From Mycoplasmataceae bacterium (GTDB lineage: Bacteria > Bacillota_I > Bacilli_A > Mycoplasmatales > Mycoplasmoidaceae): 32,363 nt of DNA. Each line of letters begins with the position of its first letter. Position 1 is the first letter of the stretch. The notes beneath the pieces are model-generated. The model saw only the letters and a list, made by a program, of their open reading frames with translations, did not search any database and was not told the origin of the DNA. The translations under genes and the position numbers were made by a program. Positions 26,985-31,929 of the stretch are shown here, piece after piece. The stretch spans positions 1 through 32,363 of the forward strand of contig JAIRME010000022.1 in NCBI GenBank assembly GCA_031258945.1, written 5' to 3'.

Positions 26985-27120
26985 TTCGCATTAACAATTA
27001 AAATGACTTAGGTGAATCCACCAAAGTCATTTGAAATGTACAAATATTTGTATCACCTCGGTAACATAATTAAGGTATTTTCCCGTTACTGTCTTTGGTT
27101 AATGCTTTGTAAGTATATAT
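26985..27120 (-). ncRNA. L10 leader (ribosomal-protein autoregulatory element)
   Basis: On the minus strand, upstream of rplJ, AACCAAAGACAGTAACGGG (27099-27081) and GTTACCGAGGT (27066-27056) match the conserved parts of the L10 leader that L10(L12)4 binds. Next comes a strong hairpin, AAATGACTT/AAGTCATTT enclosing GGTG/CACC (27001-27032), which could act as an attenuator or block access to the ribosome-binding site. A possible -10 TATACT lies at 27117-27112. Confidence 0.85.
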
Positions 27121-28111: not shown

Positions 28112-29101
28112 TTAATTCGTTTCTATACGCTTATAAAGCGTTTTAGCATATCTATTTGAATAATGGGTAAATTCATTAACGTGATTCATAACGGACATTC
28201 ATTTATTTTGGAAGAACATATTACTAGTTTTAATAATGGTTCCGTTGATTAAACAATTAGCAACATCAGTGGCATCAACATTACGAATTGATGAAATGAT
28301 ATAGTGTTCCATTACAACACGAGGTGTATTACCCAAGACCATGGCAATTGTTTGAATATCAATATTAGCTTCAGACATAATCGTAGCTAATGTTCTTCTT
28401 AAACTATGCGCTGATCAATAGAAACTAAATTTAGCTCATTGTCGAAATACACGGAAACCTTCACCAATAATAGATATGCTTAATTTTTTATTGTCTTCAA
28501 CAAAATATTTATAACATTCAACAGGAATATAAATCTCACGTTGCTTACAAGTTTTTTCAGTATTAATAATAATTTCAGCACGCTCTGATAAATCAATTTG
28601 AGATTTAATAAAACGTTGTGCAGGAGATAATGATCAATTAATATTACATAATTCACCAATTCTCATACCAGAGCATAATAGAGCTTCAAAAGCATAATAA
28701 ATTTTTAAACGACATAAACGAGTGTGTTGACGTTTATTAATAACCATTTTACTTAGTGGTAAATTTATTCATTCATTGAATTTGCGACGTATTAATGAAA
28801 TTTGTTGTTGATCTAAACGCGTTGTCATTTTTGAAATTTCACCAGGATGAGATTCGATTCACTTATCATTAAATTTATCATAACCGTAAAATAAATTAAA
28901 TGACCAACGAAACATACTAGTTGTACTGTGAGCAGAATTTTTATTTTTCATTAATCTAGTAATGCTATTAGCTTTAAAAATGTTTTGTTTTGGATTTTTA
29001 CTGAAACATAAACGATATTTTTTTAGCAAATAGTAATAGTATAGATTTTTGCGTTGCTTGGCTAAATTTAATAATTTTTTAAAAGTGATAATTGGTTTCA
29101 C
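28112..29101 (-). CDS. Tyrosine recombinase / phage-type integrase
   Basis: Site-specific DNA recombinase, 329 residues read through several TGA(Trp) codons. Catalytic residues can be placed: Arg147 in SGMRIGEL, a Lys in the beta-hairpin (NTEKTCKQREIYIP), His232 and Arg235 in AHSLRRTLAT, and nucleophile Tyr267 in VVMEHYI. The usual LGH motif reads LGN (Asn258), a change of the third active-site His. About 60 residues follow the Tyr, longer than in XerC/D. The start is GTG at 29101 behind a strong SD (AAAGGAG). In mycoplasmas such enzymes serve integrated elements or invert promoters of surface proteins. Here the neighbourhood suggests an integrated element. Palindromes cover its upstream region, so it may be autoregulated. 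Confidence 0.85.
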
Positions 29102-29198: not shown

Positions 29199-29624
29199 TT
29201 AAGAAATAGTTAATGTAGTTGTAAATGGCGCCAAACTTTCTACGCTATCAACTTTAATTTGAAGAATAAAAGTATACACACCAACTTCAGATGCACTAGT
29301 TCATTTAACTTTATCATCAGAAATGGATAATCATGACGGTAAAGTTTGACTACCAGTCATTAAAATAACAAAATTAGGAGTAGGAGTTTTTCCGCCGTTT
29401 TTTGAATCACCTTCGATTAAAAATTGAAATGTTTGATCAGATTCTCCAGAAGTTTGAGCATTACCAAGAACGGTTGTAGGCCCATCTGTAATTGAAATTT
29501 TACTAATAGTATAACTTGGCAAACATGTCGTCAAAATAGCTGTTGTAATTCCACCAAAAGCAAAAAATGCAAACATTATTACAATTACTTTATTTTGTTT
29601 TATTCATGTTAATATTCTCTTCAT
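29199..29624 (-). CDS. Small secreted or anchored protein with one Ig-like domain
   Basis: A 141-residue product. The N-terminus KRILTWIKQNKVIVIMFAFF is a basic segment followed by a hydrophobic helix that continues to about residue 36, a signal peptide or signal anchor. The rest looks like a single beta-sandwich of the putative-Ig/cadherin-like type: PSWLSISDDKVKWTSASEVG followed by VYTFILQIKVDS, the usual 'LPxWLs...GxYtFtlqvtDs' pattern. Trp codons are TGA. An SD (AGGTGG) and a -10 TATAAT (29656-29651) precede it. It lies between the recombinase and the structured RNA, so it may be a surface or virion protein of the element. No ligand can be inferred. Confidence 0.6.
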
Positions 29625-29734
29625 ATTTGTCCACCTAAAAAACTTTTCATATTATATTACGTTTTAAATTAAATCGCTTTTGGTTCTTTGGCGATATGCA
29701 ATACAATTTTTAATGCAAGCAGTTTACTGCTAGA

Positions 29735-29768
29735 AAAGAACAAATAAAGGTTCCACTAAGAACCTTTG
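29735..29768 (-). terminator. Likely terminator of the structured RNA
   Basis: AAAGGTTC-TTAGTG-GAACCTTT on the minus strand (29747-29768), an 8-bp stem followed by ATTTGTTCTTTT. The T-rich tail is interrupted, so termination may be partial. Confidence 0.5.
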
Positions 29769-30597
29769 TACCAGTTTGGAGCTACAAATATGAAATTTGT
29801 TTTCTTTTGGGACACAGCCCTTGGCAAGAGCATAGACCTATTTAAAGACGATTATCAAAATGATAATCAGTAAAAAAGTAATTATTACGTTTTTGATAAC
29901 GTATAATCCATTTGTTTTTAAGTAGGTTTGCTCTTGCCAAGGGTGAACCTTTTTTGATATACATCACCTCCATGAAAAATGGAAAAGCATAAAGCGAAGT
30001 CTTATGCTAAAATTTCAAAAACAAAGGTGATGTTAAAAAGGTTCATTTATTGAGGCGACTTTCTTTTATAAAAAGAAACGGGTCGGCAATAAGCGGTTTG
30101 ATGAAAAAAACGCGGGCAAAATTTCACTAGCTTTAGGGCCTCTTGAGTTTTGGAAATTTTGCCTAATGCTTAAAAAGATTTATTAAGCATTAATAAATCT
30201 CCCATTTTAAAACAAAAGAAGTCGGCAAGAATTGCCGTGCACTTCTTTTGCGAGTACAACGAGTTTTCTTATACATGCCACCGCGAAACCCTCTGGGCGC
30301 CGTAGGCGAGATGCGAACACGGGCGGCGGTCAGATGCTATGCATCTTGACAGATTGAGTCAACCCTTAAATTAAAGGGTTGGTGAAAGATGTGACTCAAT
30401 TGATTTGAGACACCGCCGAGTTTCGTTTGTCTATTACCTTATTAAACAAACGAAACTGGCTTTGACAACCACACCTCACACCACCCTAATTTATTAGGGT
30501 TTTAATTTATTAAAATGAGAGAGAATAGTTTCCGGTGCTTTTGCAGCGGAAACTATTCTCTCTCATGGTGTGATGGTGTGGTTCTTAAAATTTTCTT
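29735..30597 (-). ncRNA. Giant highly structured non-coding RNA candidate (GOLLD/ROOL-like in style)
   Basis: About 860 bases without a plausible reading frame but full of long paired segments. Main stems, plus-strand coordinates: 29818-29832/29929-29943 (15 bp) enclosing hairpins 29850-29868 and 29881-29907; 29944-29954/30035-30045 plus 29961-29969/30025-30033; 30060-30067/30071-30078; 30115-30125/30153-30163 (11 bp); 30213-30222/30241-30250 with inner 30223-30228/30232-30237. Others are 30324-30330/30412-30418 (7 bp, all but one G-C) enclosing 30332-30346 and 30353-30361/30392-30400; 30419-30430/30446-30457; and 30467-30482/30567-30583 enclosing two small hairpins and a perfect 20-bp stem (30515-30534/30547-30566). 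A consensus promoter reads leftward into it and a hairpin with a T-rich tail lies at its left end. I cannot assign it to a family. Confidence 0.65.
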
Positions 30598-30602
30598 AGA
30601 AA

Positions 30603-30631
30603 ATTTTAACATATTAAAAAATATTTGTCAA
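30603..30631 (-). promoter_or_regulatory. Consensus promoter of the structured RNA
   Basis: On the minus strand TTGACA (30631-30626), a spacer of exactly 17 bases and TAAAAT (30608-30603). It is the best sigma-70-type promoter in the window and points left into the structured region; the predicted start is about 30597. Confidence 0.75.
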
Positions 30632-30683
30632 TGTCCTTAATTTATAATATTTTTGATTTCCACGATCAAAGGAAATGAATATC

Positions 30684-31469
30684 ATGGTGTCTAAGAAAGA
30701 AAAAATACAAGAAATTTTAAAACAACCGAGCATAAAAACATTACTTTTTATACTCGTTAAATGAAGTAATTTAACAAGACCTCAAATGGCTAAATTAATT
30801 AATTTAAGTGAGCGTCAAATAACTAATCTTTTAAAAATTATTGATCCTAAGCCTTACGAATCTGAAGATAAAGGTTTAAACTTAGTTGTCTTTAAAGAAT
30901 ACCCTTATAGCTCCAAAAGATTGTATAGCGCAACAAGTTATGCACAACGTCGATTAGGCGTCGTTAAAGGCATAGAGAATGGCAACCGAATAAAGTTATC
31001 CGCTAGATACGATACTAAATTTAATTTCTACGAAGTAGAACATACAGATTGATGTATTAAAGCTTTATTAAAAGAATTTGATAATAAACCTTTTGATTGA
31101 AAGCAGTATCTAACTGCACGAGAGATAGGCCAACGATGATATGAAATTTATAAAGATATTAAAGAAATATGGCACGCTGGCGTTGAAGAGAGAAAACCAG
31201 ATTTATTAATTTTAAACAAGGATTTAAAAGGACAGATTTGTATCGAAGTAGAAAATACTCCTAAATCTGAAAAACGTATGCGCATAGTTTTAAGAAGTCT
31301 TTATGCACTAGGCGACTATGCTAAACGTTTTAAGCAAGTTAAAATTTATGCGAATGAAAAACTACCAGTCTATAACAAATGGAAAAATTTGATACCATAT
31401 ATTGACTCGGGTGATGCTCCAGAGCATTTAGAAATTCTTAAACTCCATGAAAGTTTAGAGAAATACTAA
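30684..31469 (+). CDS. Winged-helix DNA-binding protein with nuclease-like C-terminal region
   Basis: A 261-residue protein read through several TGA(Trp) codons. Residues 1-55 form a helix-turn-helix (KWSNLTRPQMAKLINLSERQ followed by ITNLLKII). The C-terminal half has PDLLILNKDLKGQICIEVEN followed by TPKS, a PD-x-ExE-x-K arrangement like PD-(D/E)xK nucleases and like the replication-relaxation proteins of Firmicute plasmids and integrative elements. I infer a role in replication or mobilisation of the element. The ATG at 30684 has AAAGGA ten bases upstream; another in-frame ATG at 30675 is too close to it. The gene is divergent from the structured RNA and convergent with the RHH gene. Confidence 0.65.
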
Positions 31470-31542: not shown

Positions 31543-31929
31543 TTATTTAATTATGCTTTCAATAAAAGCTTTGATAAAACCGTTCACTGTTGTGCCGTTT
31601 TTTCTAGCAATAGCTTCAAACTTAACATAATCATCAGCTAAAATACTACACCCAGCATTTTTATATACTTTTCGTTCTAAATTTTTAGGTTGTTGTAATT
31701 TAGCAAGCACTAATTTTGTATCTATATTTTTTATAGATATCTTTTTATCTACACTGTGTGTAGATACATTAGATTTTGTTTTGTGCATAATGTAATTAGA
31801 CAATTGTTCCAAAGTTGCCGTACGTAAAGATTTATTATTTTTGTCTTTAATACGATATTTGTTTGTGTCTATCTGGTCTACTGTTCATCCAGTTAATTTT
31901 TCATATTGTTTGATGATTTGTTTATTCAT
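31543..31929 (-). CDS. Ribbon-helix-helix-like DNA-binding protein
   Basis: A 128-residue basic protein. The C-terminal 45 residues read VYKNAGCSILADDYVKFEAI then ARKNGTTVNGFIKAFIESII, a strand-helix-helix pattern with the polar turn between helices seen in CopG/Arc/Omega-type repressors. The N-terminal 50 residues (NKQIIKQYEKLTGWTVDQID) are helical and unassigned, and the middle is Lys/Ile-rich. The start is ATG at 31929 with SD AGGA; Trp16 is TGA. Octamer repeats lie upstream, downstream and inside the gene, so it probably binds them as autorepressor, copy-number regulator or partition protein. Fold assignment is by eye. Confidence 0.65.
31719..31766. repeat. Octamer repeats inside the RHH gene
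   Basis: TATCTATA (31719) and TATAGATA (31732) are exact; TATCTACA (31746) and TGTAGATA (31759) are one-base variants forming their own inverted pair. Start spacing is 13, 14 and 13 bases, the same phasing as outside the gene, although the bases also encode the Lys/Ile-rich middle of the protein. Confidence 0.75.

Follow-up and report, generated by a model that had tools for sequence, protein, structure and literature searches.

In a window of 32,363 nucleotides, the complete contig G000:C28 of a draft genome of 835 kb in which TGA encodes tryptophan, we identified a cluster of nested inverted repeats (29735-30610) that is non-coding and raised in GC. It is probably the transfer origin (oriT) of an integrative conjugative element (ICE), a DNA site and not primarily an RNA gene, and the adjacent gene (30675-31469) probably encodes its MOBC-like relaxase.

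Architecture of the palindromic region

The right end of the window is the start of an integrated element, and the contig stops before any transfer genes. The element presents, in order, an integrase gene (minus strand), a surface protein gene (minus), the palindromes, an HTH gene (plus) and the gene of a small protein (minus). These features and the parts of the region are given below, where G006, G021, G033 and G035 are genomes of the same genus, with the contig after the colon:

28112-29101, minus strand: tyrosine-recombinase integrase of the element
29199-29624, minus strand: small putative surface protein, present in the G021 element too; its Ig-like (He_PIG) match is sub-threshold
29746-29767: outermost left-end hairpin, terminator-like on the minus strand
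29818-29943: domain closed by a perfect 15-bp stem, with inner branches
29944-30045: domain with closing stem TGAACCTTTT/AAAAGGTTCA, inner CATCACC/GGTGATG and two hairpins
30054-30087: hairpin GGCGACTTTCTTTTATAAAAAGAAACGGGTCGGC; also in G021
30114-30163: hairpin GGGCAAAATTTC/GAAATTTTGCC
30213-30250: most conserved hairpin, AAAAGAAG-CGGCAA/TTGCCG-CTTCTTTT; 84% identity over 75 bases in G006, two copies in G021
30322-30417: GC-rich stem around further hairpins; G021 and G033:C18 have similar stems
30418-30457: hairpin GAGTTTCGTTTGTC..., arms 89% complementary
30468-30582: core three-way junction, basal stem P1 around hairpins A and B; in all six homologous regions, with strong covariation in the three alignable ones
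30483-30500: hairpin A (ACCCTAATTTATTAGGGT)
30515-30566: hairpin B, arms of 24 nt, 96% complementary
30585-30609: AT palindrome TTAAAATTTTCTTAGAAAATTTTAA, overlapping the -10 element; conserved in G021
30603-30631, minus strand: promoter TTGACA-N17-TAAAAT, its -10 preceded by TG, directed into the palindromes and on towards the genes for the lipoprotein and the integrase
30675-31469, plus strand: candidate relaxase gene (code 4), N-terminal HTH and C-terminal PD-(D/E)XK-like motif
31543-31929, minus strand: gene of a 128-aa protein, possibly an auxiliary protein to judge from its C-terminus, which resembles ribbon-helix-helix; no Pfam hit

A first-pass annotation of this DNA had read the region as a giant structured RNA, and the features on which it drew are present. 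The 15-bp stem (29818-29832/29929-29943) is 100% paired; the stem 30515-30538/30543-30566 (24 nt, 96%) is nested within the bulged stem 30468-30582; and the 7-bp GC-rich stem at about 30322-30417 encloses further hairpins. GC content is 0.371 inside the region as compared to 0.298 in the whole window and 0.28 in the flanks, the longest ORF is an unsupported 65 aa (code 4), in keeping with the claim that no credible gene lies here, and the leftward promoter (30631-30603) agrees with the consensus at 11/12 positions. Folding of 921 nt gave an MFE of -339 kcal/mol on the plus strand and -336 kcal/mol on the minus strand, against shuffle means of -206 and -195, respectively (z of -16.8 and -17.5, thus about -17 on either strand; 20 dinucleotide shuffles per strand, of which 0/20 reached the native energy). 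Because the two strands fold equally well, the doubt about orientation expressed in that annotation was justified.

None of the 4227 Rfam families matches it, and its proposed membership of the GOLLD or ROOL class is not upheld: neither family matched the window or the five homologous stretches at the gathering score, and neither appears in the list of matches with E up to 10. The Rfam matches overall were tRNAs on the homologous contigs and, elsewhere in the window, a ribosomal protein L10 leader (RF00557, 62.6 bits; 26990-27116, minus strand) before rplJ-rplL, an ordinary feature beside the element. We found no second copy of the region in its own genome, no match among plasmid DNA, just a 37-bp chance-like match to Cellulophaga phages among phage DNA, and no match among genome contigs with an over-specific DNA pattern.

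Conservation, covariation and strand symmetry

A DNA search over 149 related genomes returned two good partial homologues, and HTH, DNA and integrase searches brought the set to six regions in five genomes of the same genus (the window, G021:C17, G033:C3, G006:C21, G033:C18 and G035:C4). All six have a core in which the P1 basal stem surrounds the A arm and a long hairpin B (20-24 bp); the A arm forms a distinct hairpin in the window, G021:C17 and G033:C3, and weak or absent in the other three. Each region sits within an ICE-like element and is non-coding, built of inverted repeats and followed directly by the HTH/PD-(D/E)XK gene (6/6), as would be expected of an oriT beside its relaxase gene, while 15 other integrase-bearing stretches that lack this gene have no such region beside the integrase. 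In three of the six (G006, G035 and G033:C18) the module faces the other way with respect to the gene.

Alignment of the three alignable cores (A4) revealed that 94.8% of cells pair and that 20/46 pairs have changed on both sides, with 1 one-sided change. This level of compensatory change was reached in 0/500 shuffles, indicating that the core structure is under selection. Across the six cores the ratio of Watson-Crick to G-U pairs was 265:7 for the plus strand and 272:5 for the minus strand, so that G-U pairs make up about 2%, and folding energies displayed no consistent strand preference. A 26-bp hairpin of Spiroplasma plasmids behaves similarly, with 10 pairs changed on both sides and 1 on one side. 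An RNA helix would generally be expected to show more wobble intermediates. Strand symmetry, the scarcity of G-U pairs and the near absence of one-sided changes thus fit DNA palindromes better than RNA, a reading to which the flipping orientation of the module and its constant neighbour gene also point.

Four further observations concern the wider set of loci. The most conserved hairpin is a tandem pair in G021 (L035 5603-5735), and the GCGTTCTTTTGTATCCTTTTCTTT motif has a second, partial copy in G006 (L036 8867-8921), 2 kb off the structured region. A degenerate HTH gene without palindromes adjoins tRNA-Val, -Glu and -Asn genes (L043 2750-3854), perhaps an element scar at a tRNA cluster. There is another very stable, low-GC intergenic fold (L110 901-1100; -72 kcal/mol per 200 nt); the integrase ~7 kb away lacks the HTH gene.

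A candidate relaxase and a parallel in Spiroplasma plasmids

The HTH protein of the window alone has no Pfam match, and HTH families match several members of its protein family. A profile built from eight relatives and run over 320 genomes of the order had matches confined to the same genus and to large-genome mollicutes, and it recovered the pF-like proteins of Spiroplasma plasmids (E 3e-9 to 4e-5). Only the profile reached Spiroplasma, as tblastn of two HTH proteins against plasmids gave no match; a plasmid search with one profile-found relative then returned 42 records, all Spiroplasma. Viral contigs matched neither the HTH protein nor the IRR motif described below.

Several features of this family recall MOBC relaxases, which are PD-(D/E)XK, restriction-endonuclease-like enzymes; TraX of pAD1 has a winged HTH at its N-terminus (PMC12857230). 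Firstly, D176, E191, E193, K197 and R201 are invariant in eight and in 15 sequences, a PD-(D/E)XK-like pattern (D, E-x-E, K, R); secondly, the NCBIfam MobC model (NF041423) matches 13/15 family members (best E 1.1e-7), all below its curated cut-off; thirdly, Replic_Relax matches one member (7e-4). Taken singly, the window protein scores no better than E 0.043 against MobC, and at the same loose threshold the model has weak matches in 6/14 control genomes, so the MobC assignment rests on the family, not on the window protein. AlphaFold models were too low in confidence to confirm a nuclease fold (pLDDT 47 for the window protein alone, 59 for a pF alignment); residues 1-49 align with HTH regulators (Z up to 4.9), Foldseek with these models returned nothing below E 0.77, and VIA-align gave HTH-like rows only, with no nuclease listed. 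In the CloDF13 record mobC is unannotated and no clear MobC ORF was found. From these sequence similarities, the family that includes pF is best read as one of putative MOBC relaxases.

The link to pF connects the region to earlier work on Spiroplasma citri plasmids, in which five inverted repeats (IRR) upstream of pF were proposed in 2008 as a possible transfer origin, with both replication and conjugation named as possible roles; no S. citri plasmid gene resembled a relaxase (PMC2386487). At most Spiroplasma loci examined, the DNA upstream of the pF-type gene folds at -79 to -97 kcal/mol per 200 nt, and such a fold is missing at that place in L128, L131 and L152. This folded DNA corresponds to the published IRR. 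IRR-like DNA occurs in 42 plasmid records, all Spiroplasma. Neither direct alignment nor a covariance model of the Spiroplasma IRR core matched the region in the window (the model's best hits had E of 1.1 or more and lay elsewhere), so the link consists of position, architecture and homology of the adjacent protein.

The pF-position proteins of pSci1 and pSci3 (~196 aa) are annotated as BlaI-type regulators or hypothetical. At two S. citri loci (L150 4001-4591 and L151 1563-2156) the annotation is BlaI/MecI/CopY, probably from the HTH alone, and MobC-type similarity suggests another role. In hairpin B of the Spiroplasma IRR core (e.g. L155 2231-2340), two neighbouring C-A/A-C mismatches are fixed in 13/16 sequences and the loop is nearly invariant; this could possibly be a protein recognition or nick site.

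A probable transfer origin, rival readings and known systems

Related elements carry genes of conjugation type. The G021 and G033 elements encode TraG and VirB4-like proteins, and the G021 homologue combines integrase, coupling protein and VirB4 in one element. We take the region to be a transfer origin in preference to an RNA gene since it lies directly before the gene of a probable DNA-nicking enzyme, a position kept in every region found and matched by the absence of the region beside the integrase in the 15 stretches that lack that gene. The same conclusion is suggested by the pF homologues that follow the published IRR (PMC2386487), by the MobC matches and invariant D, E-x-E, K and R, by the TraG and VirB4-like genes, by the strand symmetry of the palindromes, and by the inversion of the module relative to the gene, which a DNA site would tolerate. 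Against it, the region is long for an oriT (~860 bp), a strong promoter reads into it in the window and G021, and neither a nic site nor relaxase-binding direct repeats were identified within it; positions 29400-31000 hold no array of direct repeats. A nic site is, however, not recognisable by sequence alone, and among MOBC systems direct repeats are documented for pAD1, whose TraX binds five of them, and may not be general.

In transfer, the integrase would excise the element, the N-terminal HTH of the relaxase would bind the palindromic region and its PD-(D/E)XK domain would nick one strand there; a TraG-like coupling protein would pass this strand to a minimal VirB4/VirB6-type channel, and the palindromes, folding on the single strand, might aid recognition, re-closure or second-strand priming in the recipient. 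Tentatively, this may represent a mollicute-specific initiation of conjugation, in which a minimal MOBC-like relaxase acts on a large and folded oriT. The long palindromes of this oriT would drift in sequence yet stay perfectly paired, probably via repair or template switching while single-stranded.

Read instead as RNA, the region would yield a large structured non-coding transcript of ~860 nt from the minus strand, running from the promoter at 30603-30631 to an end near 29740 and analogous to but outside GOLLD/ROOL, or else would serve the lipoprotein and integrase genes to its left as a long structured leader. Its elaborate, conserved and covarying structure would suit either; moreover, the promoter with its TG-extended -10 is strong in the window and G021 (0/200 shuffles as good in either) and moderate in G033:C18, and in the window it brackets the region together with the leftward terminator-like hairpin at the far end (29767-29746). 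However, G033:C3, G006 and G035 have no comparable promoter, neither energies nor wobble pairs favour a strand, double-sided changes outnumber one-sided ones 20 to 1, the helices are perfect over 20-26 bp, Rfam offers no match, and the link with a relaxase-like gene is constant. The case for a large minus-strand RNA is weakened by these data and we consider it unlikely: of the first-pass reading, a real, conserved, multi-branched structure in a mobile element with a leftward promoter stands, and its RNA nature is in doubt. Because this promoter is real, a transcript from the region is possible, and it could coexist with a DNA site on the same DNA.

No likelier is a role in replication of the excised element, as its origin or as a single-strand initiation site, with the HTH/PD-(D/E)XK protein as replication initiator and possibly an oriT role as well. 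The family name 'replication-relaxation', the SSB and AAA+ loader-like genes in the elements and the location of Spiroplasma IRRs, mostly before regions of positive GC skew (PMC2386487), speak for it; against it, no iterons or DnaA-box cluster were noted, that same paper names replication and conjugation alike, and the same elements encode a coupling protein and VirB4. That unrelated mobile repeats or hairpins were piled up by insertion is highly improbable, despite the doubling of one hairpin in G021 and incomplete IRRs elsewhere on pSci6 (PMC2386487). We rejected this idea, which the first-pass annotation had named as a refutation of its own, given the lack of a second genomic copy, the same architecture with the same gene in five genomes, and stems kept through compensatory change.

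For conjugation in wall-less bacteria, a recognised relaxase and oriT have so far been lacking. A plasmid survey found no relaxase in any Tenericutes plasmid and called all of them non-mobilizable, and its reference set held no MOBC-associated oriT (PMC7105883); PLSDB likewise labels all 42 Spiroplasma plasmids found here non-mobilizable. If correct, our reading would supply the missing relaxase and oriT for Spiroplasma plasmids and related ICEs, and with them a defined gene and site for experiments, which could also serve as a marker for re-typing such plasmids and ICEs.

Among known systems, MOBC relaxases (MobC of CloDF13, TraX of pAD1) share with the candidate its predicted N-terminal HTH, a PD-(D/E)XK-type motif and a mobile element with TraG/VirB4-type genes, whereas the candidate is very divergent in sequence and no direct-repeat binding array was found. 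GOLLD and ROOL resemble the region in their large ornate predicted fold and mobile-element setting, but the region differs in its lack of an Rfam match, its strand-symmetric palindromes and its relaxase-like neighbour. Mycoplasma agalactiae ICEA is likewise an ICE of a mollicute and has VirD4/VirB4-like genes; non-coding regions and one hairpin were suggested for its oriT, and, unlike here, it uses a DDE transposase instead of a tyrosine integrase and no such palindrome cluster has been reported (PMC6030558). In a literature search that took in few subscription journals, no paper joined IRR/pF to a MobC-like family, so that priority is provisional. Of earlier publications, the IRR paper (PMC2386487) comes closest. 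The IRR lies on a plasmid rather than an ICE, is shorter (~300 bp), has further hairpins between core and gene and was published without a relaxase assignment. Like the region, it is made up of long inverted repeats placed immediately before a homologous HTH/PD-(D/E)XK-like gene, with a basal stem around a short and a long hairpin and long perfect hairpins covarying on both sides, and the IRR plasmids of S. citri and S. kunkelii, like the ICEs here, carry conjugation-type genes alongside. To that work we add the MobC-like family link, ICE-borne relatives, and the evidence from covariation and strand symmetry.
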